Shown: positions 25,245 through 41,836 of the stretch, one piece after another
Numbering within the stretch: position 1 is the first letter of the stretch
How the letters are laid out: each line of letters opens with the position of its first letter
Origin: Mesorhizobium sp. M1E.F.Ca.ET.045.02.1.1
GTDB lineage: Bacteria > Pseudomonadota > Alphaproteobacteria > Rhizobiales > Rhizobiaceae
NCBI RefSeq assembly: GCF_003952485.1
Contig: NZ_CP034447.1
Span: 3,300,501-3,364,500 of the forward strand
Direction of reading: 5' to 3'
DNA length: 64,000 bases
Made by a program: the position numbers and the translations under genes
Notes under the pieces: model-generated
The model's input: only the letters and a program-made list of their open reading frames with translations
Database searches by the model: none
What the model was told of the DNA's origin: nothing

Positions 25245-25248
25245 GGCA

Positions 25249-26333: not shown

Positions 26334-27611
26334 TCAACCGCGATGTCGATAGGCGGCAATGGAATCCGCCTTCATCTCGATCGAGAAGCCTGGTGCCGTC
26401 GGCGGCATGTAAGCCGCGTTCTCGATGACACAGGGATCGAGGAAATGCTCATGCAGGTGATCGACATATTCGATCACGCGGTCCTGCTTGGTGCCCGAGA
26501 GGGCGACATAGTCGATCATCGACAGATGCTGGACATATTCGCACAGGCCGACGCCGCCGGCATGCGGCCAGACCGGCAAGCCGAACTTGGCCGCGATCAG
26601 AAGCACGGCCAGCACTTCGTTGAGCCCGCCCATGCGGCAGGAATCGATCTGCACGACGTCGATGGCGCCACCTGCGATGAACTGCTTGAACATGATGCGG
26701 TTCTGGCACATCTCGCCGGTCGCGACCTTGATCGGCGCCACGGCTTTGCGGATTTTCGCATGGCCGGCAACATCGTCCGGGCTGGTCGGTTCCTCGATGA
26801 AGAAGGGCTTGGCGAAGGCGAGGTCGGTGAGCCAGTCGATCGCCTGGTCGACCTCCCAGACCTGGTTCGCGTCGATCATCAGGTAGCGGTCCGGGCCGAT
26901 CACCTCGCGGGCGATCCTGAGGCGGCGGATGTCGTCGGCGCGGTCGCGGCCGACCTTCAGCTTGATGTGGTCAAAACCCTGGTCGACCGCTTCCTGGCAG
27001 AGCCGCCGCAGCTTGTCGTCGGGATAGCCGAGCCAGCCGGCCGAGGTGGTATAGCAGGCATAACCTTCGCGCTCGAGCGTGGCGATACGCTCGGCCTTGC
27101 CGGCTTCGGCCTTCTTCAGGATCTCCAGCGCCTCGACCGGCGTGATCGCATCGGTGAGGTAGCGGAAGTCGACGATCTTGACGGTCTCTTCCGGGCTCAT
27201 CCCGGCGACCAGCCGCCAGACCGGCTTGCCGGCTTCCTTCGCCCACAGGTCCCAGACCGCATTGACGACCGCGCCGACCGCAAGATGCATGGCGCCCTTG
27301 TCCGGGCCGATCCAGCGCAGCTGGCTGTCGCCGGTCACGTGGTGCCAGAAACGGCCGGGGTCCTCCTTGACCCAGCAGAGGTCGAGCCCGACGACCAGAT
27401 GGCGCAGCGCTTCGATCGCCGCGCAGCAGATCTCGTTGCCGCGGCCGATGGTGAAGGTGAGCCCATGGCCCTTCAACGACGGGACGTCGGTGTCGAGGAT
27501 GACATAGGCCGCGGAGTAGTCCGGGTCGGGGTTCATCGCGTCCGACCCGTCGAGGCTTTGCGACGTCGGAAAGCGCAGGTCGAAGGTGCGAAGATCGGTA
27601 ATGCGTGTCAT
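26334..27611 (-). CDS. fucD: L-fuconate dehydratase (enolase superfamily)
   Basis: 425-aa enolase-superfamily dehydratase. It converts L-fuconate to 2-keto-3-deoxy-L-fuconate. The catalytic and metal residues line up with those of characterised L-fuconate dehydratases: Lys217/Lys219 in HIKLKVG, Asp247 in MIDANQ, Glu273 in FIEEP, Glu300 in ATGEM and His350 in WPHAGG. The length also matches. The start is ATG 27611 (MTRITDLRTFD); an open extension upstream runs antisense into the SDR gene and is not real. It follows the SDR gene by 13 bp in a leftward operon. Confidence for fuconate is good, but related acid sugars could be accepted. Confidence 0.9.
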   Translation of the reverse strand: MTRITDLRTFDLRFPTSQSLDGSDAMNPDPDYSAAYVILDTDVPSLKGHGLTFTIGRGNEICCAAIEALRHLVVGLDLCWVKEDPGRFWHHVTGDSQLRWIGPDKGAMHLAVGAVVNAVWDLWAKEAGKPVWRLVAGMSPEETVKIVDFRYLTDAITPVEALEILKKAEAGKAERIATLEREGYACYTTSAGWLGYPDDKLRRLCQEAVDQGFDHIKLKVGRDRADDIRRLRIAREVIGPDRYLMIDANQVWEVDQAIDWLTDLAFAKPFFIEEPTSPDDVAGHAKIRKAVAPIKVATGEMCQNRIMFKQFIAGGAIDVVQIDSCRMGGLNEVLAVLLIAAKFGLPVWPHAGGVGLCEYVQHLSMIDYVALSGTKQDRVIEYVDHLHEHFLDPCVIENAAYMPPTAPGFSIEMKADSIAAYRHRG

Positions 27612-27624
27612 GCTCAGTGCCTCA

Positions 27625-28356
27625 TCAGATCGACCAGCCGCCGTCGATATTATAGGCCTGTCCGGTCGTGTAAGTCGCGCCGGCGAGATAGACGGCGAGA
27701 TCGGCGATCTCTTCAGCCGTGCCCAGCCTTCCCATCGGCTGACGGGCGATGAAGGCGGCGCGGGCGGCCTCATAGTCGCCCTGCGCGCGCATGCGGCTTT
27801 CGAGCGACGGACTCTCCACCGTGCCGGGGCAGACCGCGTTGCAGCGGATTCCCCTGGCGACATAATCGGCGGCGATCGACTTGGTCAGGCCGATCACGGC
27901 CGCCTTGGTCACGCCATAGGCGAAGCGGTTGGGCACGCCCTTCGGCGCGCCCGCGACCGAGGCCATGTTAATGATGGCGCCATCGCCGCGCTCCAGCATG
28001 CCGGGCAGCACGGCGCGGATGGTGCGGATCATGGCGCGCACATTGAGATTGAAGGCGAAGTCGAGGTCCTCGTCCTTCATCTCGAGGATCGAACCGGAAT
28101 GGACGAAGCCGGCGCAGTTGAACAGCACGTCGACGCGGCCGATCTCGGCGAAGGCGGCCCTCACGGCCTCGTCGTTCAGCACGTCGAGCTTGCGGGTCTT
28201 GACGCCGGGCATCTTGCCGAGCTCGGGCAGAACCGCCTCGTTGATGTCGGTGGCGTGGACGATTGCGCCGGCCTTGGCGAAGGCAAGCGCGCTTGCCCGA
28301 CCGATGCCCTGCGCCGCCGCGGTAACGACAACGACCTTGCCCGTCAGATCAGCCAT
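27625..28356 (-). CDS. SDR dehydrogenase, probable 2-keto-3-deoxy-L-fuconate dehydrogenase
   Basis: 243-aa NAD-dependent SDR with TAAAQGIGRA cofactor motif (12-21), acidic Asp after strand two (HATDINEA, NAD preference), NCAG, catalytic Ser in NMASVAG and YGVTK. The overall pattern, including KTRKLDVLND and SPSLESRMRAQGDYEAAR, is that of the BDH2-like SDRs that oxidise 2-keto-3-deoxy-L-fuconate in the non-phosphorylated L-fucose pathway. It sits directly upstream of fucD. Confidence 0.85.
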   Translation of the reverse strand: MADLTGKVVVVTAAAQGIGRASALAFAKAGAIVHATDINEAVLPELGKMPGVKTRKLDVLNDEAVRAAFAEIGRVDVLFNCAGFVHSGSILEMKDEDLDFAFNLNVRAMIRTIRAVLPGMLERGDGAIINMASVAGAPKGVPNRFAYGVTKAAVIGLTKSIAADYVARGIRCNAVCPGTVESPSLESRMRAQGDYEAARAAFIARQPMGRLGTAEEIADLAVYLAGATYTTGQAYNIDGGWSI

Positions 28357-28376: not shown

Positions 28377-28829
28377 TCAGCCGAGTCGGGGACGCCGCTC
28401 GACGATGTAGATGTGATCGGCGGCGAGTACGACTTCGTCGCGCTGGTTGATGACCTCGACGCGTTCGATGACGCGCCCTGAGTCCAGTCGTTTCGGATCG
28501 TTCTCCTTCGCGGCGATCGTCGTGCGCGTGCGGATCGTGTCGCCGATGAACACCGGCTTGATGAAGCGCAGCCTGTCATAGCCATAGGAGAAGGCGACCG
28601 GGTTGATGACGGTTGCCGTGAGGCCGACGCCGACCGAGAACACCAGCGTGCCATGGGCGATGCGCTGGCCGAAGGGCGTCGTCTTCATGAACTCGGCGTC
28701 CATATGATGCGGGAAGAAATCGCCGGTGTGTCCGGCATGGACGACGAAGTCCGTCTCGGTGATCGTGCGGCCGCCGGTGAGCCGCGACGAGCCGATCTCA
28801 TAGTCTTCGAAATAGGTGACCTGTTCCAT
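28377..28829 (-). CDS. MaoC-family hot-dog dehydratase-like protein
   Basis: 150-aa single hot-dog protein. The MaoC hydratase-2 motif is largely intact: [15 protein letters not shown], giving the Asp and His expected for hydration of enoyl-CoA, followed by [12 protein letters not shown]. The segment [20 protein letters not shown] near 80-99 is almost identical to the second MaoC protein at 39978-40529. I chose ATG 28829 ([11 protein letters not shown]); upstream codons have no family similarity. It lies in the sugar operon between a Gfo/Idh oxidoreductase and the SDR, where a CoA-ester step is not part of the textbook L-fucose route. Confidence 0.85.
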
Positions 28830-28836
28830 CTCGTCC

Positions 28837-29910
28837 CTACGGCTTTTCCGCGAGCGGCGTCGCCGGTGCGGCGCTCGATTTATAGGCGGCCTCCACCAAC
28901 GCCATCGTATTCCAGGCATCTTCGACGGAGCTGACTAGCTCGTTGTCTTCCCCGGACGCGAAGCGCTGGACATTGGCCATGCGCCCGACAAAGGCGTCGG
29001 GGAACCATTCGCCGGTGAGCGGCACGCTGACCCAGTCGGATCCACCTTTGGGATAGATCTCCAGCACATCGGGCTCGCCGCGAGGATAGTCGAGATTGAG
29101 TCCGAGCTTGACATAGGCAGCGCCCTCGGTGCCGCAGATGCGGAACTCGCAGGCCTGGTGCCGGCGTCCGAATTTGTGATCGTGGTTGATCGAGAGCGCA
29201 CAGCGCACCGTGTCGCCATAGTCGAGGATGGCGCTGGTGCGGGTCTGCGCGACCTTGTGATTGGGATGGCCGAGCGTTTTGGCGTGGACCCCCTTGGGGT
29301 CGCCGAGGAGCTGTCGGATCAGGTCGAGGTAATGGATCGAATGCATGGCGATCTCGACGCGCGGCGCCTTGAGCAGGAATTCCCAGAGCTGCCACGGCGT
29401 GGCAAGCGCCAGCCAGGCGTCGAAGTCGACGACCTCGCCCAGCCAGCCCTTGGCGATCGCGTCCTTCAGCGCCAGCATCATCGGCGCGAAGCGCAGTTGG
29501 AAATTGACCGCAGCCTTGAGTTTCTTGGCGCGGCAGATTTCGAGGATCTCGGTTGCCTCGCCGAGATAGTTGCCCATCGGCTTCTGGATCAATGCGACCG
29601 CACCATCGGGCAGGGCCTTCAGGACCTCGGCGTGCCGGCCGGGCGGCGTTGCGAGATCGAAGATCGCGTCCTTGACAGCGGCCGCCTCGCCCACCGAGCG
29701 GAACGCCGTCACGCCCCACTTCTCAGCCAGTTTTCCGGATTTGGCATGGTCGGGATCGTAGAGGCCGGCAACTGGAAAGCCGGCCTTGCGATAGGCCGGC
29801 AAGTGCGCGTCGCCAACGATCGAGCCGGCGCCGAAGGTTACAATCGGACGCGGCTTCGCAGGCGCTGGCCAGGATTGCGCCAGCAATCGAGGGTCGAAGG
29901 CGTCAGTCAT
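28837..29910 (-). CDS. Gfo/Idh/MocA-family oxidoreductase
   Basis: 357-aa NAD(P)-dependent sugar or polyol dehydrogenase. The N-terminal Rossmann fold begins with [17 protein letters not shown] (about 24-40), and a C-terminal alpha/beta substrate domain follows. The family's EKP motif appears as IQKPMG, with Gln in place of Glu. A His pair in [13 protein letters not shown] matches the catalytic region. I chose ATG 29910, which overlaps the mutarotase stop by 8 bp; ATG 29925 is also possible, neither having a strong ribosome site. In this operon it may oxidise the free sugar or a side intermediate. Confidence 0.85.
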
Positions 29911-30232
29911 GGTGGAAGACTTCATCCATCATCGCCCACCATTCGCCCTCCTGCCTGGTCGGCAAGGGCTCCTGGCAAGGCATGCAGACCGCCCACCATT
30001 CCTGGGTCTTCGGGTCGGCGGCCATCTTGGCCATGTCGGCGGCATAATCGGTGCCGTGATATTCGAAATAGGAGAACAGCAGGTTCTCCGGACGCTTGAG
30101 ATAGATCGAGTAGTTCTTGATGTTGCAGGCCGAGATCATCTTGAGCACGTCCGGCCACACAGCGGCGTGCAGGCGCACATATTCGTCGACCTTCTCCGGC
30201 TTCAGGCCGAGCACCATGCCCATGCGCTGCAT
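29903..30232 (-). CDS. L-rhamnose/L-fucose mutarotase family protein (RhaM-like)
   Basis: 109-aa protein of the RhaM (DUF718) family, the usual length. It interconverts sugar anomers so that the right one is available to the next enzyme. The catalytic His22 in VRLHAAVWPDVL, the Tyr in KNYSIYL and the paired tryptophans in TQEWWAVC match the family. It starts 1 bp after the end of the preceding enolase-superfamily gene and overlaps the Gfo/Idh gene. In an L-fucose-type locus it probably serves L-fucose or another 6-deoxyhexose. Confidence 0.88.
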   Translation of the reverse strand: MQRMGMVLGLKPEKVDEYVRLHAAVWPDVLKMISACNIKNYSIYLKRPENLLFSYFEYHGTDYAADMAKMAADPKTQEWWAVCMPCQEPLPTRQEGEWWAMMDEVFHHD

Positions 30233-30233
30233 C

Positions 30234-31355
30234 TCAATTTCTCCGTTCGGTGATGGTCACGTTGAATTCGGCGATGCTGCGCGCCTTGAGCGCATCGAAA
30301 TCCCAGTCGATGCCGAGGCCCGGCTCGCTTGGGGCCAGCGCATGGCCGTTTTCGATCACCATCTTCTTGCCCGTCAACTCATCCAGCTGCGGAATGTACT
30401 CGACATATTTGCCGTTCGGCACCGCGCAGGCCAGGCTGACATGCAGTTCCATCAGGAAATGCGGGCAGACAGGCATGTCGAAGGCCTCCGCCATATGCGC
30501 CACCTTCAGCCACGGCGTGATGCCGCCGATGCGGCCGACATCGACCTGGACGATGTTGCAGCCGCCCTTCTGCATATATTCGCGGAAATGGCGGATCGAA
30601 TAAAGCGACTCGCCGACGGCCACCGGCGTCGCGGTCGAATTCGACAGCCGCACATGGCCGTCGATGTCGTCGGCGGGCAGCGGCTCCTCGATCCAGGCGA
30701 GATCGAGATCGCGCAAGCGCTCGGCGCGCCGGATGGCTTCATCGACGGTAAAACCCTGATTGCAGTCGGTCATGATCTCGTAGCCGTCGCCGACGGCCTT
30801 GCGCACGGCCGAAAGCCGGGCGAAATCCTCCGAACCGTGCGGCTTGCCGATCTTGACCTTGGAGCCCGTGAAGCCTTTCGCCTTGGCGGCCAGGGCATCC
30901 TCGACAAGTGCGGCCGTCTCGAGGTGCAGCCAGCCGCCTTCGGTGGTGTAGAGCGGACAGCGGTCCTTGGCGCCGCCGGCGAGTTTCCAGAGCGGCAGGT
31001 TCTGCTTCCTCGCTCGCAGGTCCCAGAGCGCGGTGTCGATTGCCGCGAGCGTGATTGCCGTGATGGCGCCGATGGTGGTGGCGTGGGTGGCGAATTCGAG
31101 ATCGTGCCAGATGGCCTCGATCCGGTCGGCGTCCTCACCGATAAGGCGCGGCGCGAGGTGATCGGCCAGAAGCCGCATCACCGAAGAACCGCCGGTGCCG
31201 ATCGTGTAGGAATAGCCCATGCCGACCGCGCCGTCGGCGTCGGTGATGGTGACGATCGGAGTTTCCTGGCTGACGAAACTCTGGATCGCGTCGGTGCGCT
31301 TCACCTTCGGCACCAGATCGACCATTGCAAGCTCGACTTTCTCGATCTTGGCCAT
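30234..31355 (-). CDS. Mandelate racemase/muconate lactonizing enzyme family protein (second acid-sugar dehydratase?)
   Basis: 373-aa enolase-superfamily enzyme, distinct from FucD. Catalytic features: KxK in SKVKIGKP (Lys166/Lys168), metal ligands Asp197 with Asn199 in DCNQ, Glu223 in WIEEP and Glu249 in VGES, Asp272 in VQVDVGRIGG, and His299 in CPHF. The DxG...H dyad places it near acid-sugar dehydratases or racemases, but I cannot name its substrate. It follows the ATPase gene by 2 bp and precedes the mutarotase, so it is inside the transporter operon. It may process a stereo-isomer such as L-galactonate or D-arabinonate. Confidence 0.85.
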   Translation of the reverse strand: MAKIEKVELAMVDLVPKVKRTDAIQSFVSQETPIVTITDADGAVGMGYSYTIGTGGSSVMRLLADHLAPRLIGEDADRIEAIWHDLEFATHATTIGAITAITLAAIDTALWDLRARKQNLPLWKLAGGAKDRCPLYTTEGGWLHLETAALVEDALAAKAKGFTGSKVKIGKPHGSEDFARLSAVRKAVGDGYEIMTDCNQGFTVDEAIRRAERLRDLDLAWIEEPLPADDIDGHVRLSNSTATPVAVGESLYSIRHFREYMQKGGCNIVQVDVGRIGGITPWLKVAHMAEAFDMPVCPHFLMELHVSLACAVPNGKYVEYIPQLDELTGKKMVIENGHALAPSEPGLGIDWDFDALKARSIAEFNVTITERRN

Positions 31356-31357
31356 CG

Positions 31358-32455
31358 TCAGCTCCTCAAGGATTTGCCGGTTTCCGCGGAAAACAGATGC
31401 GCCTGCGACAGGTCGAAGCTCATGGCGACGCGGTCGCCGGCCTTCAACGGCCTGGGGTTCAGCATGCGCGAGACCCAGTCGCGGCGATCGAATTCGGCGA
31501 ACACCAGCGTTTCGTTGCCGAGCGGCTCCGTCACCGTCACCGGCAGCTCAATCTGATGGACATCGGCGGCGTCACCCGAATGCAGGCCGTGGCCTGCTGG
31601 ATAGAGGTCGTCGGGACGCAGGCCGAAAATCACCTTGTCGCCGGCGCTGACCCTAGCCTTGAAACGGCCGGGCAGCGGCAGGCTCTGGCCGCCGGCGAAA
31701 ACGACCTTGCCGTCGTCAACGGTCGCCTCCTGCAGGTTCATCGGCGGCGAGCCGATGAAGCCCGCGACGAAGCGCGTGGCCGGCCGCTGGAAGACTTCAT
31801 CCGGCGTGCCGACCTGCTCGATATAGCCGTCGCGCATGATGACGATGCGGTCGGCGAGAGTCATCGCCTCGACCTGGTCGTGCGTGACATAGATGACCGT
31901 GGATTTCACCTTGGCATGCAGCTTCTTGATCTCGGTGCGCATCTGGGTGCGCAGCTTGGCGTCGAGATTGCTGAGCGGCTCGTCGAACAGGAAGACGTCC
32001 GGGTCGCGCACGATGGCGCGGCCCATGGCGACGCGCTGGCGCTGGCCGCCGGAAAGCTGCGAGGGGCGGCGCTCCAGCAGCGCGTCGAGGCCGAGAATGG
32101 CCGAGGCCTCGGCGACGCGGCGGGCCATCTCCTCCTTCGGCGCGCCGGCGATCTTCAACGAGAAGCCGAGATTCTCGCGCACTGTCATATGCGGATAAAG
32201 CGCGTAGGACTGGAACACCATCGAGATGTTGCGCGAGCGCGGCGGCAGGTCGTTGACGATGCGGTCGCCGATCTCGATCGTGCCGCCGGAGATGTCCTCG
32301 AGACCGGCGATCATGCGCAGCGTGGTCGACTTGCCGCAGCCCGACGGCCCGACCAGCGCGATGAACTCGCGGTCGGCGACATCGAGGTCGATGCCGTGCA
32401 CGATCTCCATGTTGCCGTAACGCTTGGTGAGTTTCTTGAGCGAGACAATCGCCAT
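31358..32455 (-). CDS. Sugar ABC transporter ATP-binding protein (UgpC/MalK family)
   Basis: 365-aa ATPase: Walker A GPSGCGKST (about 37-45), Q-loop MVFQSYALYPHM, signature LSGGQRQR, Walker B VFLFDEPLSNLDAK and H-loop YVTHDQVEAM. A C-terminal TOBE/OB domain follows (residues 240-360). It energises import through the two permeases just upstream (4 bp gap). The sequence is similar throughout its first half to the ATPase at the left window edge, as is usual for this family. Confidence 0.94.
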   Translation of the reverse strand: MAIVSLKKLTKRYGNMEIVHGIDLDVADREFIALVGPSGCGKSTTLRMIAGLEDISGGTIEIGDRIVNDLPPRSRNISMVFQSYALYPHMTVRENLGFSLKIAGAPKEEMARRVAEASAILGLDALLERRPSQLSGGQRQRVAMGRAIVRDPDVFLFDEPLSNLDAKLRTQMRTEIKKLHAKVKSTVIYVTHDQVEAMTLADRIVIMRDGYIEQVGTPDEVFQRPATRFVAGFIGSPPMNLQEATVDDGKVVFAGGQSLPLPGRFKARVSAGDKVIFGLRPDDLYPAGHGLHSGDAADVHQIELPVTVTEPLGNETLVFAEFDRRDWVSRMLNPRPLKAGDRVAMSFDLSQAHLFSAETGKSLRS

Positions 32456-32459
32456 CGGA

Positions 32460-33329
32460 TCAACCTTTCACCGCGCCGGAGGTCAGGCCGCCGACGAGGT
32501 GCTTCTGCACGATGAAAGTGAGGATAAGCGCCGGAATGATCATCACCACGGCCAGCGCGCACATGCCGCGCCAGTCGATGGTGAATTCGGCGGTGTAATC
32601 GAGCAGCCCGACGGGCAGCGTCTTCGAATTGATCGAGCGCGTGAGCTGCGAAGCCAGCGCGAACTCGTTCCAGGAGGTGAGGAAGGCGAAGATGCCGGCC
32701 GACGCGATCCCCGGTCCGGCCAGTGGAAACTCGACCTGCCAGAAGGCCTGCCAGCGCGTGCAGCCGTCGATCTGCGCCGCCTCGGCGAGGTCCTTCGGCA
32801 CCTGGCGGAAGAAGCCGTCGATCAGCCAGATGGTGAAGGGCACGTTGAGCGCGACGTAGGCCAGGATCAGGCCGAAATGCGTGTCGATGATGTCGAGCCG
32901 GGCGTAGACGAAGAACAGCGGCAACGACAGCGCGATGCCGGGCACGGTGCGCGTCAGCATCAGGCCGAGGAACATCGCCGACTTGCCGCGGAAGCGGTAG
33001 CGGGCGAAGGCGTAGCCGCCGGCCATGCCGATGGCGATGGCAATGACGGTCGACGTCACCGAGATGATCAGCGAGTTGCGGAAATAATCGAGGACCGGGA
33101 TGCCGCCCTTGCCGACGCCGCTGAACATGGCGATGTAGGCATCGAGCGAGACTTGCTGCGGGATCCAGACCGGCGGCTTGGCTAGGATCTCGACCGTCGG
33201 CCGCAGGGACGACAGCACGATCCAGACGCCGGGCAGGCAGATCAAAAGCATGGCGAGGAACAGGCCGACGCGATGGGCGACGACGCCAGCGCGGCGCTTC
33301 AGGCGGGCGGATGCGTTGGCGTCCATCAT
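32460..33329 (-). CDS. Carbohydrate ABC transporter permease (MalG type)
   Basis: 289-aa inner-membrane permease with about six hydrophobic segments, coupling loop DLAEAAQIDGCTRWQAF and C-terminus LVGGLTSGAVKG typical of MalG proteins. The start is the ATG at 33329, inside the upstream stop codon (TGATG), with GGAG 5 nt before it; two GTG codons just upstream are less likely. It pairs with the MalF-type permease encoded before it. Confidence 0.93.
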   Translation of the reverse strand: MMDANASARLKRRAGVVAHRVGLFLAMLLICLPGVWIVLSSLRPTVEILAKPPVWIPQQVSLDAYIAMFSGVGKGGIPVLDYFRNSLIISVTSTVIAIAIGMAGGYAFARYRFRGKSAMFLGLMLTRTVPGIALSLPLFFVYARLDIIDTHFGLILAYVALNVPFTIWLIDGFFRQVPKDLAEAAQIDGCTRWQAFWQVEFPLAGPGIASAGIFAFLTSWNEFALASQLTRSINSKTLPVGLLDYTAEFTIDWRGMCALAVVMIIPALILTFIVQKHLVGGLTSGAVKG

Positions 33330-34225
33330 CACCACTCCGCGCCGATCTGGGTGCGCGCCGCGGCGAGCTTTTTGAAGAAATAGACGGTGAAGACGATCGA
33401 CAGCAGGATCGAAAAATAGGCCATCGCGTTGGCGACACCCATGCGCGCGTCGCTATAGGCGGTGCGCGCCACCAGCGTCCACAACAGTTCCGTGCGGCCG
33501 GCCGGGCCGCCATCCGTCATGATCTTGACGATGTCGTAGGCGCGCGCGACGTCGAGCGAGCGGATGGTCATGGCGATATAGGCAAACGGCATGATGAAGG
33601 GCCAGGTCACATAGCGGAAGGTCTGCCACGGCGTGCAGCCATCGACTCGCGCCGCCTCGACCGGCTCCTTCGGCATGGCGAGCAGGCCGGCGAGGATCAG
33701 GATCGCGAAGATCGAGGTCGACGACCAGATCTCGGCAATCGAAATTGCGATGAAGGCAAGGTGGCCTTCGATCAGCCACGGGATGGCGTCCTGCGTCAGG
33801 CCGAGCGACTGCAGCGCGTTGTTCACCAACCCGATATTGTCGTTGAACATGAACTTGAACTGGAAGCCGACCAGGATCGGCGAGAACATCATCGGGAACA
33901 TCATGATGGTGCGCAGCAGCCGCTGGCCGCGGCTGGCCTTCTCGACCAGCAGCGCAAGGCCGAGCCCCAGCAGCATCTCGAGATTGAGCGCGATGGTGAG
34001 CAAGAGCACGGTGCGGCCGAAGGCCCACCAGAAATTCGCGTTGGACAGGATGTTGCGATAGTTGCGCAGCCCGATGAAGGTGAAGAAGGTTTCCGGCCGC
34101 GTCAGCCTGAACGGCGTGAAGCTGGAATAGAAAGACAGGCAGAGCGGCACGACCACCACTGCCGCCAGCACGAGCACGGCCGGCAGCAGAAGAAGGGTTG
34201 GCGCGGAAAGCCGCTTGGCAGTCAT
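33329..34225 (-). CDS. Carbohydrate ABC transporter permease (MalF type)
   Basis: 298-aa inner-membrane permease with an N-terminal membrane segment (LLLLPAVLVLAAVVVVPL), about six in all, and the EAA loop EPVEAARVDGCTPWQTF. I chose ATG 34225 (MTAKRLSAP), with TTGGAA upstream, over an in-frame TTG four codons earlier. A 211-bp gap with hairpin repeats separates it from the binding protein gene, matching the layout of the other sugar operon in this window. Confidence 0.93.
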   Translation of the reverse strand: MTAKRLSAPTLLLLPAVLVLAAVVVVPLCLSFYSSFTPFRLTRPETFFTFIGLRNYRNILSNANFWWAFGRTVLLLTIALNLEMLLGLGLALLVEKASRGQRLLRTIMMFPMMFSPILVGFQFKFMFNDNIGLVNNALQSLGLTQDAIPWLIEGHLAFIAISIAEIWSSTSIFAILILAGLLAMPKEPVEAARVDGCTPWQTFRYVTWPFIMPFAYIAMTIRSLDVARAYDIVKIMTDGGPAGRTELLWTLVARTAYSDARMGVANAMAYFSILLSIVFTVYFFKKLAAARTQIGAEW

Positions 34226-34330
34226 GCAATGTTCCAAAGATGGTAGTGCTGCTGGCGATCCGTGTCGCGGCCGGCCGCATCGGTCAAAGCGGCGCCGGTC
34301 GCGAGGACCGGCGCCGCGGGGAGGATGGCG

Positions 34331-34437
34331 CTTAAAGCGAGTCGCTTCGAAACGAACTCCAAGCGACGCGCTTTAAGCCTTTGTTCTGATGCATGTCGTC
34401 CACCCAAAACCGCTGCGCACTTTTGGGCGACATGCAT
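34331..34437. repeat. Two inverted-repeat hairpins between binding protein and permease genes
   Basis: First, GCTTAAAGCG...TCGCTT near 34329-34346 pairs imperfectly with AAGCGACGCGCTTTAAGC (34361-34378). Second, ATGCATGTCG (34389-34398) pairs with CGACATGCAT (34428-34437), with inner CCCAAAA/TTTTGGG; its last base is the first base of the binding protein's stop codon (minus-strand TAA at 34439-34437). A close copy of the second element lies at 36744-36788. These are mobile-type intergenic repeats that in RNA would form a 3' hairpin after the binding protein cistron. Confidence 0.82.
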
Positions 34438-35747
34438 TAGAGCTTGCCCGCGTCCTCGAGGATCTGCGTCGCCTTGGCGGCCGCGTCGTCGAGCGCCTGC
34501 TTGGAGGTCTTGTCGCCGAGGATGGCGGCCTGCAGCTCCGGATAGACGGCGTTGGAGATCTCGATCCACTCCGGCGTCTGCGGCACCGGGAAGGCGTTCT
34601 TGGCGGCTTCCTGGAAGGCCTGCAGCACTTCGGTCTTGTAAGGATCGGACTTCGCCTGATCGAGGTCCCATTCCCAGACCTTGGTGCGGGTGGGCAGCGG
34701 GCCGGCCGCGGCTTCCAGCCTCTGGCTGTCCTCATTGGTCAGCCACCAGACGAGCGAGGCAGCGGCTTCCTTGTCGGCGCAGTTCTCGGTCACCGAGAAG
34801 CCATGCGCACCGGACCAGCCGGAGCGCTTGCCGGACGAGCCCTTGGGCTGGACCTTGACGCCGACATTGCCGGCGACCTTGGACGACTTCGCGTCGTTGA
34901 AGAAGCCGGCCCAGCCCGGCCAGTCGAGGTTGATCGCCACGGTGCCAGACGCGAAGCCCTGGCCGAGGTCATCCCAAAGATAATTGGTCGTGCCGGCGGG
35001 CACGGCCTTGGCCTTGTAGAGCTTGACGAACCAGTCGAGCGCCTTGACGCCGGCCTCGGAGTTGAAGGCCGGCTTGCCGTCCTTGTCGAGATATTCGCCG
35101 CCATCGGCAATCAGCATCTCGTAGAAGCGGCCGTTGATCGCCTCTTCCTTGCCGGCATATTGCGTGCCGTAGAAGTCGGGCGGGCTGGCGAAGAATTCCG
35201 CCTGCTGGGCCATCTCGTCGAACGTGTCCGGGGGCGCGAGGTCCTCGCCGTACTTCTCCTTGTAGGCCTTCTTCTTGGCTTCGTCCTGATAGAGGCTCTT
35301 CTGGTAGTAGAGCGCCGAGACGTCGAACTGCGCGCGCGGCAGCATCACCAGCTTGCCATCCAGCGTTCCGGCCGCGATGTTGGCAGGCACGAAGGCATCG
35401 ATCTCCTCCTTCGGCAGCAGCTTGGCGAGATCGGTGTAGATGCCCGGATATTGCGGCGCGAACGAGGTGTGGTTGGAGCCGACGCACCAGGTGATCGAGT
35501 TGGAGGCAATATCCGACTTGATCTCCTTGTCGAGATCGAAGTGGTTCTTCTTGGAGATGACGTTGACCTTGGCACCGGTCGCCTTCTCCCACTCGCCGAT
35601 ACGCTCGTAGAGCTTCTCGTATTGCTGGCCGCCAATCAGCTTGGCGTCGACGGTGACGCCGGGAAACTTGCCCGGCAGATCGGCCGCGAATGCCGCGCCC
35701 GATGCCATGAGCAATGCGCCGGCGACGCCGGAAAGCAGTCTGTTCAT
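34437..35747 (-). CDS. Periplasmic sugar-binding protein of ABC transporter
   Basis: 436-aa solute-binding protein (family 1). The Sec signal peptide is MNRLLSGVAGALLMASGAAFAA, with cleavage near AFA-A. The mature start FPGVTVDAKLIGGQQYEKL and the C-terminal ELQAAILGDKTSKQALDDAA are typical. ATG 35747 has GGAGG 6 nt upstream; an open extension to 35813 is promoter DNA. It is the first gene of the leftward operon that continues into permeases, ATPase, dehydratases and SDR, and is divergent from the IclR gene (158 bp). Probable substrate: L-fucose or a related deoxy/acid sugar, by context. Confidence 0.92.
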   Translation of the reverse strand: MNRLLSGVAGALLMASGAAFAADLPGKFPGVTVDAKLIGGQQYEKLYERIGEWEKATGAKVNVISKKNHFDLDKEIKSDIASNSITWCVGSNHTSFAPQYPGIYTDLAKLLPKEEIDAFVPANIAAGTLDGKLVMLPRAQFDVSALYYQKSLYQDEAKKKAYKEKYGEDLAPPDTFDEMAQQAEFFASPPDFYGTQYAGKEEAINGRFYEMLIADGGEYLDKDGKPAFNSEAGVKALDWFVKLYKAKAVPAGTTNYLWDDLGQGFASGTVAINLDWPGWAGFFNDAKSSKVAGNVGVKVQPKGSSGKRSGWSGAHGFSVTENCADKEAAASLVWWLTNEDSQRLEAAAGPLPTRTKVWEWDLDQAKSDPYKTEVLQAFQEAAKNAFPVPQTPEWIEISNAVYPELQAAILGDKTSKQALDDAAAKATQILEDAGKL

Positions 35748-35905
35748 GAATATCCTCCCTGGACGGCCGACAGCCGTCGTGATCTGAAGCTCAGCAGCTT
35801 CATTCATATGCAAACAAAATATTCATAAGTCGTCAAGCCGAAACTGCTTTCCAACGATGGCGCTCTTGCGTATATGAAGATGAAAATTCACCAGAGGGGC
35901 ATCCG
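35748..35905. promoter_or_regulatory. Divergent promoter region between sugar operon and IclR regulator
   Basis: This 158-bp stretch is clearly richer in A+T than its surroundings. It holds CATTCATATG and ATATTCATAAG (about 35801-35828) and, nearer the IclR gene, GCGTATATGAAGATG (about 35870-35884). The repeated TTCATA/TATGAA half-sites in both directions are candidate IclR operators. Similar TTCACATATGA appears at 40632-40642 ahead of the MaoC/CoA-transferase operon, which suggests a shared regulator. This is inference from sequence similarity only. Confidence 0.45.
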
Positions 35906-36691
35906 GTGCAGGACGACGAAGAAGACCGCTATCGCGCGCCGGCTCTGGACAAAGGGCTGGACATCCTGGAGCTGTTGGCAAGCGTCGACGGCGGCCTGAC
36001 CCAGGCCGAGATCGCCAAGCGGCTCGACCGCAGCCCGAACGAGTTCTACCGGATGCTCGACCGGCTGGTGAAGCGCGGCTACGTCACACGCCCCGACGGC
36101 GACCGCTATTCGCTGACGCTGAAGCTCTTCGGGCTCGGCCAGTTGCATGCGCCGGTGCGCAGGCTGGTCTCCTACGCCACCTCGATCATGCGCGAACTGG
36201 CCGAGACGTCGTGGCAGGCGAACCAGCTCGTGGTGTTCGATCGTGGCAGCGCGGTCGTCATCGCCCAGCAGGAAGCGCCGCGATACTGGGGTATCTCGAT
36301 CCGCGTCGGCTCGCATATCAGCCTGTTCGACACCGGGTCGGGACATGTCCTGCTGGCGTTCCGCTCGCCGGAAGAGCGCGAGATGATGATCGCCGAGCAC
36401 TTGCGCAGCAACGAGGAGATGAAGCTGTCGCCCGACTTCTTCGCCCGCCTCGACCAGGTGCGCGACCGCGGCTATGAGATGATGGCTTCGCTGCAGACGG
36501 CCGGCGTCTACAATCTGTCAGCGCCGGTGCTCGGTCCCGACGGCCGCGGCATCGCCGCGCTCACCATACCCTACATCACCCTGGTCAACGCGCCGTCCGC
36601 GCCCGATATCACCAGGACCATCACGCTGCTCCAGGCCGCCGCCGCCCGTCTGTCGCAACTCGCCGGATCGGATGTGCGGCCAAAGGGATAA
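35906..36691 (+). CDS. IclR-family transcriptional regulator
   Basis: 261-aa regulator. The N-terminal winged helix reads ALDKGLDILELLASVDGGLT then QAEIAKRLDRSPNEFYRMLD (about 12-52). The C-terminal effector domain holds GSHISLFDTGSGHVLLAF (about 129-146). The start is GTG 35906 with AGAGGGG 6 nt upstream. It is divergent from the sugar ABC/dehydratase operon and upstream of the lactonase gene, so it probably controls both. The effector is unknown, likely a pathway keto acid or the sugar. Confidence 0.9.
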   Translation: MQDDEEDRYRAPALDKGLDILELLASVDGGLTQAEIAKRLDRSPNEFYRMLDRLVKRGYVTRPDGDRYSLTLKLFGLGQLHAPVRRLVSYATSIMRELAETSWQANQLVVFDRGSAVVIAQQEAPRYWGISIRVGSHISLFDTGSGHVLLAFRSPEEREMMIAEHLRSNEEMKLSPDFFARLDQVRDRGYEMMASLQTAGVYNLSAPVLGPDGRGIAALTIPYITLVNAPSAPDITRTITLLQAAAARLSQLAGSDVRPKG

Positions 36692-36808: not shown

Positions 36809-37645
36809 ATGATCGTCGACACGCACCTGCATCTCATCGACAAGGCGGCGCTGCGCTACCCTTGGCTGTCCGGCGTGCCGGCGCTCGACCGCAACTTCTC
36901 CCACGATGAATATGCCACCGAGGCGCGCCGCGCGGGCATAGAGCAGGCGCTGCATATGGAGGTCGATGTCGACCCGGCCGATATCGAGGCCGAGACGGCT
37001 CACGTCGAAGGACAGTCGAAGAAGCCCGGCAGCCTGGTGCGGGGCGCGATCGTCTCGTGCCGGCCGGAAGAGGCCGGTTTCGCCGCCTGGCTGGACAAGG
37101 TGAAAGCCGATCCTTTCGTGAAGGGTTTTCGCCGCGTGCTGCATGTCGTGCCCGACGACGTTTCCGAGGGCGCGCTTTTTCGCGAAAACATCAAGCGTAT
37201 CGCCGGCAGCGGACTGACGTTCGATCTCTGCGTCCTGCCGAGGCAGATGATGCAGGCCATTGCGCTCGTCGATCTGGCGCCGGACGTGCAGTTCGTCCTC
37301 GATCATTGCGGCGTGCCCGACATCAAGGGCAAGGCCGAGCACCCCTGGCGCGAGCAGATAGCCGCGATCGCGCGGCGCCCCAATGTCGTCGGCAAGATCT
37401 CCGGCGTCGTCGCCTATGCCGATCCCGCGACCTGGACCGCCGAGACGCTGCGGCCCTATGTCGAGCACACCATCGCAAGCTTCGGCTGGGACCGCGTCGT
37501 GTGGGGCAGTGACTGGCCCGTGTGCACCTTGGGCGGCGGGCTGCTCGGCTGGGTGGCGGCGACACACGCGCTCATTGCCGGCGCGAGCGAGGCCGAGCGC
37601 GCGAAGCTTTTGTCCGGCAACGCGAAGAAACTCTGGCGGCTGTAA
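36809..37645 (+). CDS. Amidohydrolase-family lactonase, probable L-fuconolactonase
   Basis: 278-aa TIM-barrel amidohydrolase of the COG3618 type, which hydrolyses sugar lactones. The N-terminal metal motif is VDTHLHL (His6/His8), followed by DHCGVPDIKG (about 171-180) and the C-terminal VWGSDWPVC, whose Asp is the conserved catalytic residue. The expected reaction is L-fucono-lactone to L-fuconate, the step before FucD. It follows the IclR gene on the plus strand, opposite the main sugar operon, and has AGGGAGG upstream. Confidence 0.87.
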   Translation: MIVDTHLHLIDKAALRYPWLSGVPALDRNFSHDEYATEARRAGIEQALHMEVDVDPADIEAETAHVEGQSKKPGSLVRGAIVSCRPEEAGFAAWLDKVKADPFVKGFRRVLHVVPDDVSEGALFRENIKRIAGSGLTFDLCVLPRQMMQAIALVDLAPDVQFVLDHCGVPDIKGKAEHPWREQIAAIARRPNVVGKISGVVAYADPATWTAETLRPYVEHTIASFGWDRVVWGSDWPVCTLGGGLLGWVAATHALIAGASEAERAKLLSGNAKKLWRL

Positions 37646-37669: not shown

Positions 37670-38815
37670 TTAGTCGGCCGCAACGGCGGGCGCGAAACTC
37701 TCCCGGAACAGGCGGTTGATGTCGGCGACGACCCGGCGCCCATCCTGCCGGCCGGCTAGGCCCTCGTTGAGGCAGTCGGACGCGGCCTGCTGGAACGCCA
37801 TGTAGCCGTCATGGCGCGGGCGTACCCAGGCGCCCTCGAGCGTTGCCCGCGTGCGGCGATAGAAATCGCCGGTCGCGGCGTTGACGGCCGCGTCCTCCCA
37901 GGCGGCGGCATGGCCGGGCTGGCCGCCGGCGGCGGCGTAGGGACCGCGCTGCACCTCGCCGCTGGCGATCCAGTAGGCGAAGTCGATCGCTTCCTTGCTG
38001 GCAGTGGAGAAAGCCGAGACGGCGATGCCGGTGCCGCCGAGAGCGGAACCGACCGGGCCGTCAGTGCCCACGGACGGCATGTCGCTGAAAAAAAGCTGGT
38101 TCGGACGGAACCCGGCTTTCGCATAGGGCACGTAGCCATAGATCAGCGGTGCGCAGGCGATGCGCGAGCCGGCTTCCGCCATCTTTTCGAACACCGCGAT
38201 CGGATCCATCGTCAGGCATTCGGGATCGACGAGCGCCGAGATCTCACGCAGCATTTCGAAGACGGTTTCGCCGGTCTCGGGATCGACCAGATCGCCCGGG
38301 CCTTCGACGGCGCACGGCCGGCCAAGATCGGCGGCTAAAGTGAAGAAGCACATCAGCGAGTGCGGCGGCCTGAGCGGCAGGAGCACGCAGCCCTGCTCGA
38401 CAAGCTCCAGCACTTCGGTCCAGATCGTCGGCGCGGCCTCGATCAGATCGGGCCGCCAGGCCTGCACTTGGCTGGCGGCGTCGATCGGAAAGGCCCATTG
38501 CCGTCCCCGCCAGGCGTAGCTTGGATAGGATCGACCGACGCTTGCCTTGGCCAGCGCTTCGCGCTCCGCCTCGCGGCCCGGAACGTCGAGCGGCGCCAGG
38601 CACTTCTCGGCGGTGATCTGGCCGACATGCGGATGATCGATGACGATCAGGTCATAGGCGCGGGCGAGTTCCTCGACCGAGAAAGATTCGAAATCCTGCA
38701 GCGAGCGCTTCTCCCATTCGATCGAAATGCCGGTCTTTTCCTGCCACAGCCTGGAGCAGGCAACCATCGGATCGTAGCCGCGCGGATGGTTCCAGGTCAT
38801 GCCTTTCAACGACAT
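37670..38815 (-). CDS. Solute-binding-protein-like protein without signal peptide
   Basis: 381 aa that read as a family-1 extracellular solute-binding protein: TWNHPRGYDPMVACSRLW at the start, WRGRQWAFPIDAASQVQAWR near 105-125, and LGGTGIAVSAFSTASKEAIDF near 260-280, the last matching the hinge/helix motif of sugar-binding proteins. No hydrophobic signal segment precedes MSLKGMTW, and none is reachable from the in-frame GTG just upstream, which overlaps the CoA-transferase stop. It is the last gene of a MaoC/CoA-transferase operon and has no permease next to it. It may be cytoplasmic and bind a pathway metabolite. Function unknown. Confidence 0.78.
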   Translation of the reverse strand: MSLKGMTWNHPRGYDPMVACSRLWQEKTGISIEWEKRSLQDFESFSVEELARAYDLIVIDHPHVGQITAEKCLAPLDVPGREAEREALAKASVGRSYPSYAWRGRQWAFPIDAASQVQAWRPDLIEAAPTIWTEVLELVEQGCVLLPLRPPHSLMCFFTLAADLGRPCAVEGPGDLVDPETGETVFEMLREISALVDPECLTMDPIAVFEKMAEAGSRIACAPLIYGYVPYAKAGFRPNQLFFSDMPSVGTDGPVGSALGGTGIAVSAFSTASKEAIDFAYWIASGEVQRGPYAAAGGQPGHAAAWEDAAVNAATGDFYRRTRATLEGAWVRPRHDGYMAFQQAASDCLNEGLAGRQDGRRVVADINRLFRESFAPAVAAD

Positions 38816-38820
38816 GCCAC

Positions 38821-39978
38821 TCACAGGCCGAACTCCTTGCGGATCTTGTCGCTGTGCTCGCCGACGCGCGGCGCCGCCCGCTCGACCTTGGCGCGCACGC
38901 CGTCGATCCGCAGCGGCGACCGGGTCGTGTCGATCGTCACCCCATCCTCGCGCGTCACGGTCTGCAGCAGGTCGAGCGCCTTGAAGCCGTCGCTCTCCAG
39001 CATCTCCCTCCAGTTCAGCACCTTCGCGCACCAGATATCGGCCGGCTCGAGGATCGCCAGCCATTCATCGACCGCTTTCTGCGCGATGCGCTGGGCGATG
39101 ATCGCCTTGATCTCGTCGCGCGCGGTGAACCAGGTCGACGGCTGGTCGAGGTAGGGCGCCAGCGCCTCGATCTCGAGCAGGTCGGCCAGTTTAGGGATCG
39201 GCGTCATGGCGATCGCCAGGAAACCGTCCTTGGCCGGATAGACGCCGTAGGGCGCCGCCAGATAGGCATGGGCGCTGCGGAAGGACGAACGGCGCGGCAG
39301 CCGCCGTCCGTCGTTGAGATGTGTCGTCAGAACCTCGAACTGGAAGTCGATCAGCGCCTCGAACAGGCTGGTCTCGACATGGCCGCCTTCGCCGGTGATG
39401 CCGCGCCGGACAAGTGCTGCGAGGATGCCCTGCGCGCAGGCGGCACCCGCCAGCATGTCGGCGATTGCCAGACCGAACGGCACCGGACCCTGATCCTCGT
39501 CGCCGTTCAGCCACATCACGCCGGAGCGCGCCTGGGCGAGCAGATCCTGGCCTGGACGTTTCACCCAAGGGCCTTCCTCGCCATAGCCGCTGATCGAGGC
39601 ATAGACCAGCCGCGGGTTGAGCGAGCGCACATGCTCATAGTCGAGGCCGAGCCGCTCGATGATGCCTGGCCGGAAATTCTGGATCAGCACATCCGCTTTG
39701 CCGAGCAGGCCGCGGAGCGCGGCAAGGTCCGCTTCGTTCTTCAGATCGACGGCAAAGCTCTCCTTGGCGCGGTTGATGGCGTGGAAGATGGTGGAATCGC
39801 CGCCGATCTCGGTGTCGCTGAGATAGAGCCTGCGGGACAGGTCGCCGCCATCCGGACGCTCGATCTTGATGACGCGCGCGCCGAGGTCGAGCAGTCTCAG
39901 CGAGCAGTAAGGTCCCGACAGGAACTGGCTCATGTCGACGACGACAAGGCCGGACAGCGGCAGGTCGGCGGCCATCAT
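38821..39978 (-). CDS. CaiB/BaiF-family (class III) CoA-transferase
   Basis: 385-aa class III CoA-transferase that moves CoA between carboxylic acids through an aspartyl-anhydride intermediate. The expected catalytic Asp145 sits in RPGQDLLAQARSGVM, and the N-terminal LVVVDMSQFLSGPY and RVIKIERPDGGD motifs are typical. The start ATG 39978 lies in the MaoC stop codon (TGATG). Partner acids are unknown. Together with a MaoC hydratase-like protein it suggests activation and hydration of an unsaturated or branched acid. Confidence 0.9.
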   Translation of the reverse strand: MMAADLPLSGLVVVDMSQFLSGPYCSLRLLDLGARVIKIERPDGGDLSRRLYLSDTEIGGDSTIFHAINRAKESFAVDLKNEADLAALRGLLGKADVLIQNFRPGIIERLGLDYEHVRSLNPRLVYASISGYGEEGPWVKRPGQDLLAQARSGVMWLNGDEDQGPVPFGLAIADMLAGAACAQGILAALVRRGITGEGGHVETSLFEALIDFQFEVLTTHLNDGRRLPRRSSFRSAHAYLAAPYGVYPAKDGFLAIAMTPIPKLADLLEIEALAPYLDQPSTWFTARDEIKAIIAQRIAQKAVDEWLAILEPADIWCAKVLNWREMLESDGFKALDLLQTVTREDGVTIDTTRSPLRIDGVRAKVERAAPRVGEHSDKIRKEFGL

Positions 39979-40529
39979 CACTTCTCCGTCTTGCCGGCGA
40001 AGTCGGCCGGGTTCTTGTATTTCACCGTCTGAAGGTGCTCGCAGTAGAGCACCAGCTCGCCTTCGCCCTTGAAGACTTCGTAGCTGGCGCGGATCAGCCC
40101 CATGTCCTTGTAGCGGGGCTTTTTCTCCATGTTGGTGCGGATCGAATAGATGGTGTCGCCGATGAAGACCGGCTTGATGAAGCGGAGCTTGTCGTAGCCG
40201 TAGGAAAAGGCGTTGACGCAATTGGTCGCGACGAGGCCGAGCCCGGCGGAGAAGACGAACGCGCCGGCCACCAGACGCCTGCCGAAAATGCCTTCGCGCT
40301 CGGCGAACATCTGGTCCTGCACGTAAGGGTGGATGTCGAGCACCAGGGTGTTGAAGAGATGGCTGTCGCCTTCGGCCATGGTGCGCCGGAGCGAGCGGAT
40401 TTTCTGGCCGACCGGCCAATCCTCATACAACCAGTTTTCGGCGTTCCACACCGGCAGTTCGGCGTGATCGGCCGGCATGTCGGAAGGGCGGGTCGAAGCG
40501 ACGCCGACGGTGGGTGGGAAGCTGGTCAT
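39978..40529 (-). CDS. MaoC-family protein, second copy
   Basis: About 183 aa. A hot-dog fold is suggested by [18 protein letters not shown] and [20 protein letters not shown] (about 120-139), the latter almost identical to the MaoC protein at 28377-28829. The usual hydratase motif is altered: [20 protein letters not shown] replaces the compact GDxNPxH form. I chose ATG 40529 (MTSFPPTVG), with AGGA upstream; the open frame continues further but has promoter-like composition. It is the first gene of the MaoC, CoA-transferase, SBP-like operon. Confidence 0.82.
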
Positions 40530-40951: not shown

Positions 40952-41836
40952 ATGGCGGTTCTTGGTGCATTCCCTTCCGGTGTCGGCTGCCGGCCCTTCG
41001 ATGAGGGGGACTGGGAAGGCGTGGCGGATTGCCTGCGCAGGGGCTTTCCGGAACGCAGCCGCAGCTATTGGATCGAGGCGCTGACCCGCCTGTCGCGTCG
41101 GCCCGCGGTCGCCGATTTCCCTCGATATGGTTTTGTCCTCGAGAAGTCGGGCAAGATCGTCGGCGCCGTGCTCACGCTCTATGCCAGGCACAGGGGCGTG
41201 GACGGCGACGAAATCCGCTGCAATCTCTCGAGCTGGTCGGTGGACGCGGAGTTCCGGCCCTATGCCAGCCGGATGATCGCGACGGTCATTGCGCGCAAGG
41301 ACGTTGTCTATACCAATATTTCCCCGTCACCCGGGACATTGAAACTCAACAAGGCGTTCGGCTTTCGCCTGTTTTCCGGCGGACAGGTCGCCTTCCTCCC
41401 CGTCCTGAATGCGATGCCGCGCCAGGACCGCGTGCTGGAAGTCCGTTCGGATCTCGCCGAAATGGCTGAGCTCACCGACAATGAAAGATACATACTCCTG
41501 GAGCATGCGGCGCTGGGCTGCCTGTCGCTGATCTGCGTTTGCGACGGTGTGGCGCTGCCCATTGTGCTGAAGCCGCGCCGGATTTTGCATGGCCTTATTC
41601 CGTGCTGCCAGGTCGTCTACTGCCGCTCCCACGCGGATCTGCTCCGGTGCGCCGGGGCCGTGGGGCGCTTTCTCCTGCGGCGCGGCAAGTTGCTTTGCCT
41701 CGTCGATGCCATGGGCCCGATTGCCGGACTGTTCGGCAGGTATTTTCCCAACAAGGGACTGAAATATTTCAAGGGTCCGAGATCGCCCTTGCCGGGAGAC
41801 CTGACATTCACCGAGATGGTGCTGTTCGGCTCGTGA
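40952..41836 (+). CDS. GNAT-like acyltransferase-fold protein at the edge of the polysaccharide locus
   Basis: 294 aa, no signal peptide. The first half is GNAT-like (CRPFDEGDWEGVADCLRRGF, then FVLEKSGKIVGAVLTLY near 62-78), with a weak acetyl-CoA loop in SVDAEFRPYASRMIATVI. The second half (about 165-294) has no domain I recognise. It is tail-to-tail with the polymerase gene (21 bp). Related two-part proteins occur in exopolysaccharide loci and may acylate or sense a cell-surface component. Function not established. Confidence 0.68.
   Translation: MAVLGAFPSGVGCRPFDEGDWEGVADCLRRGFPERSRSYWIEALTRLSRRPAVADFPRYGFVLEKSGKIVGAVLTLYARHRGVDGDEIRCNLSSWSVDAEFRPYASRMIATVIARKDVVYTNISPSPGTLKLNKAFGFRLFSGGQVAFLPVLNAMPRQDRVLEVRSDLAEMAELTDNERYILLEHAALGCLSLICVCDGVALPIVLKPRRILHGLIPCCQVVYCRSHADLLRCAGAVGRFLLRRGKLLCLVDAMGPIAGLFGRYFPNKGLKYFKGPRSPLPGDLTFTEMVLFGS

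Follow-up and report, generated by a model that had tools for sequence, protein, structure and literature searches.

A predicted cytosolic homolog of sugar-binding proteins coupled to a family III CoA-transferase in sugar-catabolic gene clusters

Why should a protein homologous to the exported sugar-binding components of ATP-binding cassette (ABC) transporters be encoded, without an export signal, in one operon with enzymes of coenzyme A (CoA) metabolism? This question is raised by a stretch of 64,000 nucleotides from Mesorhizobium sp. M1E.F.Ca.ET.045.02.1.1 (contig NZ_CP034447.1, positions 3,300,501 to 3,364,500; hereafter the window), which comes from a 7.35-Mb genome whose closest named relatives are Mesorhizobium. 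Here, a single minus-strand operon encodes a MaoC/hot-dog protein with non-canonical active-site positions (39978..40529; Pfam MaoC_dehydratas, 1.3e-11), a family III (CaiB/BaiF) CoA-transferase, termed CoAT below (38821..39978; CoA_transf_3, 2.7e-101 over residues 8-376), and a homolog of the solute-binding proteins (SBPs), which we term SBPcyt (37670..38824; SBP_bac_8, 3e-12). An earlier interpretation of this DNA from its letters alone (the sequence-only reading) had singled out these three genes as a tightly coupled unit, and their coordinates and the TGATG junction that joins MaoC to CoAT are borne out. It further gave a 5-bp gap before the SBP gene; the tight coupling holds, but the junction is more likely a start-stop overlap, because 78 of 80 related loci have an in-frame start codon for SBPcyt that overlaps the stop codon of CoAT (70 GTGA, 7 ATGA, and 1 TTGA); these loci are a set of genome contigs made up mostly of close Mesorhizobium relatives that are not independent of each other. 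In the window, the GTG at 38824 overlaps the CoAT stop as GTGA, and SBPcyt probably starts there rather than at the earlier proposed ATG at 38815, which would make it three residues longer (MSGMSLKG...).

A sugar-binding-protein homolog without an export signal

SBPcyt is predicted to lack an export signal. By a crude hydrophobicity measure, which is not SignalP, a hydrophobic N-terminus was found in none of the 157 SBPcyt genes (about half of them from close Mesorhizobium relatives), as against 73 of the 82 exported SBPs from the same loci that served as a positive control. The measure took the most hydrophobic 10-residue stretch within the first 40 residues (mean Kyte-Doolittle value, with a threshold of >= 2.0), and each in-frame start between 45 codons upstream and 7 codons downstream of the match was tried; with the nearest start only, 70 of the 82 exported SBPs still scored positive. 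In the loci displayed, no more than about 12 residues separate a plausible start codon from the conserved motif L(K/R)G(M/L)TWxHPRG. The sequence-only reading had noted the missing signal peptide and had named homologs with clear signal peptides as the finding that would undo its view; none is seen among the 157.

Both Pfam and PDB profiles place SBPcyt among the sugar SBPs of the trehalose/maltose type, in the same fold family (SBP_bac_8) as LpqY (1.9e-17) and the trehalose/maltose-binding protein 1eu8 (3e-16). In LpqY, residues D80, G334, and R404 bind trehalose, with Asn134 as a further ligand position (PMC7949145). The first three align with D60, G261, and R332 of SBPcyt, all of which are invariant in 27 diverse members. 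Other invariant polar or aromatic positions include W8, R12, W34, D55, D112, and Q289, with R12 falling between the first strand and the first helix. SBPcyt thus shares the fold family of LpqY and 1eu8, and these ligand positions with LpqY, but, unlike them, lacks a signal peptide and a permease partner of its own, has Ala at the Asn134 position, displays an invariant Arg after the first strand, and is coupled to CoAT. No viral homologs of SBPcyt were found in 22 stretches.

Pairing with the CoA-transferase

The conserved core of the system is the CoAT-SBPcyt pair. Among the 78 complete SBPcyt genes from the phylum and the family of the window (its own copy included), 67 have a same-strand CoAT within 200 bp, a count made up of 50 of 61 and a further 17 of 17 that were read from coordinates (one of these being the window), with two fragment matches in G797:C1 left out. 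CoAT is close by in a further four; for four divergent SBPcyt genes, a same-strand CoAT lies at a distance of about 6.3-6.6 kb, together with ECH and SDR genes; and the remaining three show no CoAT in view, namely L162, L170 (which has lost it), and L180, which is counted here even though its 3.4-kb contig stops 386 bp beyond the gene. The whole genome contains five CoA_transf_3 genes at E <= 1e-10. Since chance adjacency of the two genes is expected, by our estimate, at about 0.1-0.2% per gene, the observed 67/78 points to a pairing well beyond chance. In the 80 genome-contig loci, CoAT lies within 200 bp on the same strand without exception. The pairing occurs in both gene orders: among the 61, CoAT is upstream of SBPcyt in 37 and downstream in 13, with start-stop overlaps in 28 of the CoAT-first and 10 of the SBP-first arrangements. 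In the reverse direction, a survey of 21 genomes found SBPcyt adjoining all seven close CoAT orthologs (at least 86% identity), the window's own being one of the seven. The sequence-only reading had held that its view would fall if the protein always sat with permeases and never with the CoA-transferase; instead, CoAT is the constant neighbor and the transporter genes vary. As to whether all three genes stay together across genomes, the CoAT-SBPcyt pair does so and MaoC does not: in several lineages it is swapped for another hydratase (ECH) or was not found, which rules out a closed three-gene unit.

At E <= 1e-30, SBPcyt was detected in 18 of 398 genomes of the phylum and in 53 of 199 of the family (the genome of the window being counted in both), and a single-sequence search of the class recovered it in 6 of 289 genomes at E <= 1e-20. 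The pair also occurs on annotated plasmids of Streptomyces, Pseudosulfitobacter, Croceibacterium, and the Bacteroidota Persicobacter and Rufibacter. Eleven of the 14 plasmid-borne SBPcyt genes adjoin CoAT, two are more than 200 bp away from it (L088, L100), and one lacks it (L097). The two proteins also co-vary: the correlation of their distances is r = 0.846 across 91 pairs, dereplicated from 144 after dropping L088, L160, L161, L163, L165, L209, L210, and the pairs lacking a CoAT on the same strand within about 1 kb. Among the 34 pairs whose locus also encodes a UgpC-type ABC ATPase, SBP-CoAT gives r = 0.830, as against 0.500 for SBP-ATPase and 0.585 for CoAT-ATPase, with shared ancestry inflating all three values.

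The presumed catalytic Asp of the ADMLAG column, which we take to correspond to Asp169 of Frc, is present in all 91 SBP-linked CoATs, and an Asp also occupies this position in the four PDB relatives aligned. In a midpoint-rooted tree of 95 chosen sequences, read without support values, the SBP-linked CoATs fall into two groups, and the other four CoATs of this genome lie outside both. A sister clade of CoATs (L226, L232, L233, L235, L236, L243) is found in sugar-type clusters of Mesorhizobium relatives, mostly beside LacI.

MaoC proteins, a second cytosolic family, and the flanking sugar cluster

Two MaoC proteins are encoded in this region. MaoC-type enoyl-CoA hydratases use an Asp/His pair in catalysis. 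With the two classes assigned by best match, the operon MaoC retains the Asp and has the two His positions replaced by Val and Ala in 86 of 86 sequences, and MaoC2, a second hot-dog hydratase encoded at 28377..28829 on the minus strand, keeps the canonical Asp and both His in 68 of 68 (the window being included in each count). As both of its His residues are replaced, the operon MaoC is probably not a conventional hydratase by itself. The combination of one canonical and one non-canonical MaoC is comparable to the heteromeric hydratases HadAB and ChsH1/ChsH2, and one may reasonably guess that the operon MaoC forms a heteromer with MaoC2.

A second family of SBPs, which we term SBPx, likewise appears to be cytosolic, as none of its eight rows (seven distinct genes, L154 and L209 being the same gene) shows a hydrophobic N-terminus. 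It is only distantly related to SBPcyt (hhalign probability 98.5%, 16% identity) and is rare, with matches in 2 of 398 genomes of the phylum and in five plasmid records. SBPx directly follows CoAT in Persicobacter, in the order SBPcyt-CoAT-CoAT-SBPx, and in Rufibacter, in the order SBPcyt-CoAT-CoAT-SBPx-Gfo/Idh-MaoC2-RhaT. In Croceibacterium and two further genomes from the class of the window, SBPx belongs to the CoAT cluster, with MaoC2 and ABC genes in between. The haloarchaeon Halostagnicola has it clustered with CoAT on the opposite strand, two genes apart, alongside genes for an AMP-binding enzyme, MaoC2, Gfo/Idh, a rhamnose mutarotase, an amidohydrolase, and an alpha-L-fucosidase. In profile alignments, R12 of SBPcyt is opposite an invariant Arg10 of SBPx and opposite a Gln of the exported SBP, a correspondence that is tentative because it sits in the first aligned column of both alignments. 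An invariant Arg in both cytosolic families, with Gln in the exported one, would suit an anionic ligand; accordingly qualified, the ligand of SBPcyt may be sugar-like and probably anionic.

The sequence-only reading had regarded the operon as self-contained, with no permease or ATPase adjacent. The latter is true locally, but an exported SBP, two permeases, and an ATPase lie just beyond the two nearest genes, and the former does not hold: the operon stands beside a conserved L-fucose-type catabolic and ABC transporter cluster (26.3-37.6 kb) that this reading had missed. The nearest gene (36809..37645, plus strand) codes for an amidohydrolase resembling L-fucono-1,5-lactonase (NF052480, 4e-25, below the family cut-off) that adjoins the operon in most related loci; it is followed by an IclR-family regulator (35906..36691, plus strand). 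The remaining genes of the cluster are on the minus strand. The first codes for the exported SBP of the ABC transporter (34437..35813, the start being uncertain and likely nearer 35747), which belongs to the class with a hydrophobic N-terminus in 73/82 and whose relatives are annotated as extracellular or sugar SBPs; its 34440-35747 segment returned no Pfam match at E below 0.01 despite these annotations. Next come two ABC permeases (32460..34237) and a UgpC-type ABC ATPase (31358..32455; NF008653, 1.3e-146, above the cut-off). Then follow an enolase-superfamily enzyme of the mandelate racemase/muconate lactonizing group (30234..31355), whose best PDB match is 3,6-anhydro-alpha-L-galactonate cycloisomerase (8.7e-73), an L-rhamnose-mutarotase-like protein (29903..30232; TIGR02625, 1.9e-13, below the cut-off), a Gfo/Idh/MocA oxidoreductase (28837..29925; 72% identity to an annotated one), MaoC2, an SDR dehydrogenase (27625..28356), and an L-fuconate dehydratase (26334..27611; PDB 2hne, an L-fuconate dehydratase, 5.4e-166; 4ip4, 2.5e-223).

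The exported SBP of this cluster is present in the fetched flank of 64 of the 80 related loci, some of the other 16 being cut by contig ends, and the wider fucose-type cluster is kept with the operon on annotated plasmids. The ABC transporter conserved nearby has an exported SBP of its own, and SBPcyt is genetically tied to CoAT. The homologous transporter of S. meliloti is reported to be linked to L-fucose. With the known oxidative pathway for this sugar (lactonase, L-fuconate dehydratase, dehydrogenase), the cluster shares a fuconate dehydratase and a lactonase-like enzyme; beyond that pathway, the window adds CoAT, the two MaoC proteins, and SBPcyt. A FAH-type hydrolase was not found in the window by tblastn, and three FAA_hydrolase genes are present elsewhere in the genome. 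Other SBPcyt-CoAT clusters carry other sugar genes, such as aldose epimerase, sugar isomerase, ECH, and FAH; as these differ among clusters, the module is not restricted to a single sugar.

Other features of the region vary or lie outside the cluster. Many relatives (L012, L013, L015, L016, L018, L020-L023, L025, L185, L200, L202, L204, L205, and others) have SBPcyt and the lactonase separated by additional DNA of about 4.6 kb or more, which, where it was fetched, weakly matches ribose-type ABC ATPases and permeases (33-42% identity). Upstream of the operon, a divergent gene without a Pfam match (40952-41836, plus strand) is present among the 80 relatives only in L004-L009, L014, L029, and L078. 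Positions 24066-26250 (plus strand) encode an M24 peptidase/creatinase-like protein and then an AstE/AspA-type deacylase, a pair that we take to resemble DoeA/DoeB of ectoine degradation.

A proposed partner of the CoA-transferase and its alternatives

The absence of an export signal, the coupling of the genes in either order, their co-variation, the retention of the CoAT Asp, and that of several sugar-SBP ligand positions are all observed, and that SBPcyt and CoAT are partners in one pathway is well supported. With about even confidence, we propose that SBPcyt descends from a sugar-binding protein of ABC transporters, is no longer exported, and now serves the family III CoA-transferase as a dedicated partner in the cytosol, holding a sugar acid for it, with a hydratase then acting on the resulting thioester. 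The physical complex, the ligand, the reaction, and the order of the steps are what we infer in this proposal. Under it, L-fucose or a related sugar would enter via the neighboring ABC transporter and be oxidized to a lactone, which would be opened to the sugar acid. The two-lobed cleft of SBPcyt may bind this acid or its CoA ester and hold it for CoAT, which would form the CoA thioester using its Asp. Finally, a hydratase would add or remove water at the beta carbon, this being MaoC2, perhaps with the operon MaoC as a non-catalytic partner, or ECH in other clusters. CaiB and CaiD act similarly on carnitine, by CoA transfer and then a hydratase step. Like such modules, the SBPcyt-CoAT systems combine a family III CoA-transferase with a clustered hydratase (ECH or MaoC), but they differ in being embedded in sugar clusters and in having a cytosolic SBP.

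The sequence-only reading had placed a binding-protein fold in the cytoplasm with a functional tie to acyl-CoA enzymes, which both the export test and the CoAT neighborhoods support, and had offered a sensor, a carrier or adaptor, or a recruited enzyme as its role. The gene pattern favors a dedicated partner of CoAT.

Several observations weigh against the proposed partnership. SBPcyt can evidently be useful without CoAT, as indicated by three cases. In Microvirga, it overlaps a mannonate-dehydratase-like gene in a sugar-acid cluster, with no CoAT annotated in 50 kb (in an incomplete gene table) and none found by tblastn in 19 kb; in L162/L241, no CoAT is visible in the sugar-acid clusters that hold it; and in L170 (G732:C17:8000-21000), an SDR gene adjoins it with no CoAT match in between, the rest of the cluster type being present. 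Conversely, SBPcyt was not found around the CoATs of the sister clade, in either their 1.5-kb flanks or the fetched region, and SBPx does not adjoin CoAT in Croceibacterium or the haloarchaeon. No fusion of SBPcyt to CoAT came to notice, the long open frames of up to 703 aa not having been inspected individually; in all 80 genome-contig loci, the two genes are out of frame with each other. On the side of the ligand, the position of LpqY Asn134 is an Ala (Ala114) in SBPcyt, invariant in the 27 diverse members, and the match of R12 to Arg10 is tentative, as noted. The structure prediction that the sequence-only reading had called for was run and gave a weak AlphaFold model (pLDDT 65.5, pTM 0.60) from an alignment of 51 sequences, the other 50 being at 72-92% identity to the window's SBPcyt; use of this model was confined to the N-terminal strand and helix, and the assignment to the SBPs rests on the profiles. 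Moreover, with a conventional fuconate dehydratase already present in the cluster, it is not evident why a CoA route would be needed.

The instances without CoAT (Microvirga, L162, L170) would accord with a somewhat unlikely alternative, in which SBPcyt is itself an enzyme that uses the binding-protein fold to catalyze a missing step, such as the dehydration, isomerization, or cleavage of a sugar acid or CoA ester. Binding-protein folds turned catalysts are known, e.g., the chorismate dehydratase MqnA; the many invariant polar and aromatic residues of SBPcyt would fit such a role, as would the Rufibacter cluster, in which no aldolase or enolase-type dehydratase is annotated in the 17 kb shown (the gene table being incomplete). 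However, several canonical sugar-binding positions are kept as in a binder, no catalytic signature is recognized in SBPcyt, and an enzymatic role alone would not explain the coupling to CoAT in both gene orders.

The regulators in these neighborhoods raise the prospect, improbable in our view, that SBPcyt senses a metabolite in the cytosol and controls one of them (IclR, LacI, or GntR) or the transporter: IclR or LacI genes are often near and at some loci directly beside SBPcyt, and SBP domains serve as sensor domains in some cytosolic signaling proteins (PMC9602780). The regulators, however, vary by cluster (IclR, LacI, GntR, MarR, TetR) where CoAT is constant, and it is to CoAT that SBPcyt is start-stop coupled. 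Slightly less likely still is a version in which SBPcyt and CoAT work in the same sugar pathway without contact, SBPcyt being a carrier or buffer of a reactive intermediate. The 8 of 78 genes that share a cluster with CoAT without strict adjacency, and the occurrence of SBPcyt in a sugar-acid cluster devoid of CoAT, would accord with this, but the start-stop overlaps in both orders and a co-variation exceeding that with the ABC ATPase argue against it. That SBPcyt is an ordinary exported SBP with a mis-assigned start, as its family name and homology to transporter SBPs might suggest, is hardly credible and was rejected, given the 0/157 hydrophobic N-termini even with starts up to 45 codons upstream, the CoAT-stop overlap in 78/80, and the nearby transporter that owns an exported SBP.

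Taking SBPcyt as the partner of CoAT, a wider and distinctly tentative proposition, to which we accord less than even confidence, is that sugar-binding proteins of transporters became cytosolic on at least two occasions, as SBPcyt and SBPx, to serve as substrate-holding subunits of CoATs in an undescribed CoA-thioester route for deoxysugars or sugar acids common to Proteobacteria, Bacteroidota, Actinomycetota, and haloarchaea. CoA-transferase/hydratase modules are themselves already known. So too are cytosolic proteins matching SBP profiles, as a class (PMC9602780). Among the matches listed from the open-access literature (titles and starts of abstracts), we found no description of an SBP-CoA-transferase pair or of such a CoA-dependent breakdown of sugar acids. 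The recurrence of the pair in the sugar-breakdown clusters of very different microbes hints at a form of sugar degradation that has not been described. If the proposal is correct, a very common bacterial fold would have acquired a new use, the presentation of a substrate to a cytosolic enzyme instead of a transporter, and a CoA-dependent sugar-acid pathway would lie hidden under the misleading annotation 'extracellular solute-binding protein' or similar, in compact gene sets that occur in ordinary soil bacteria.

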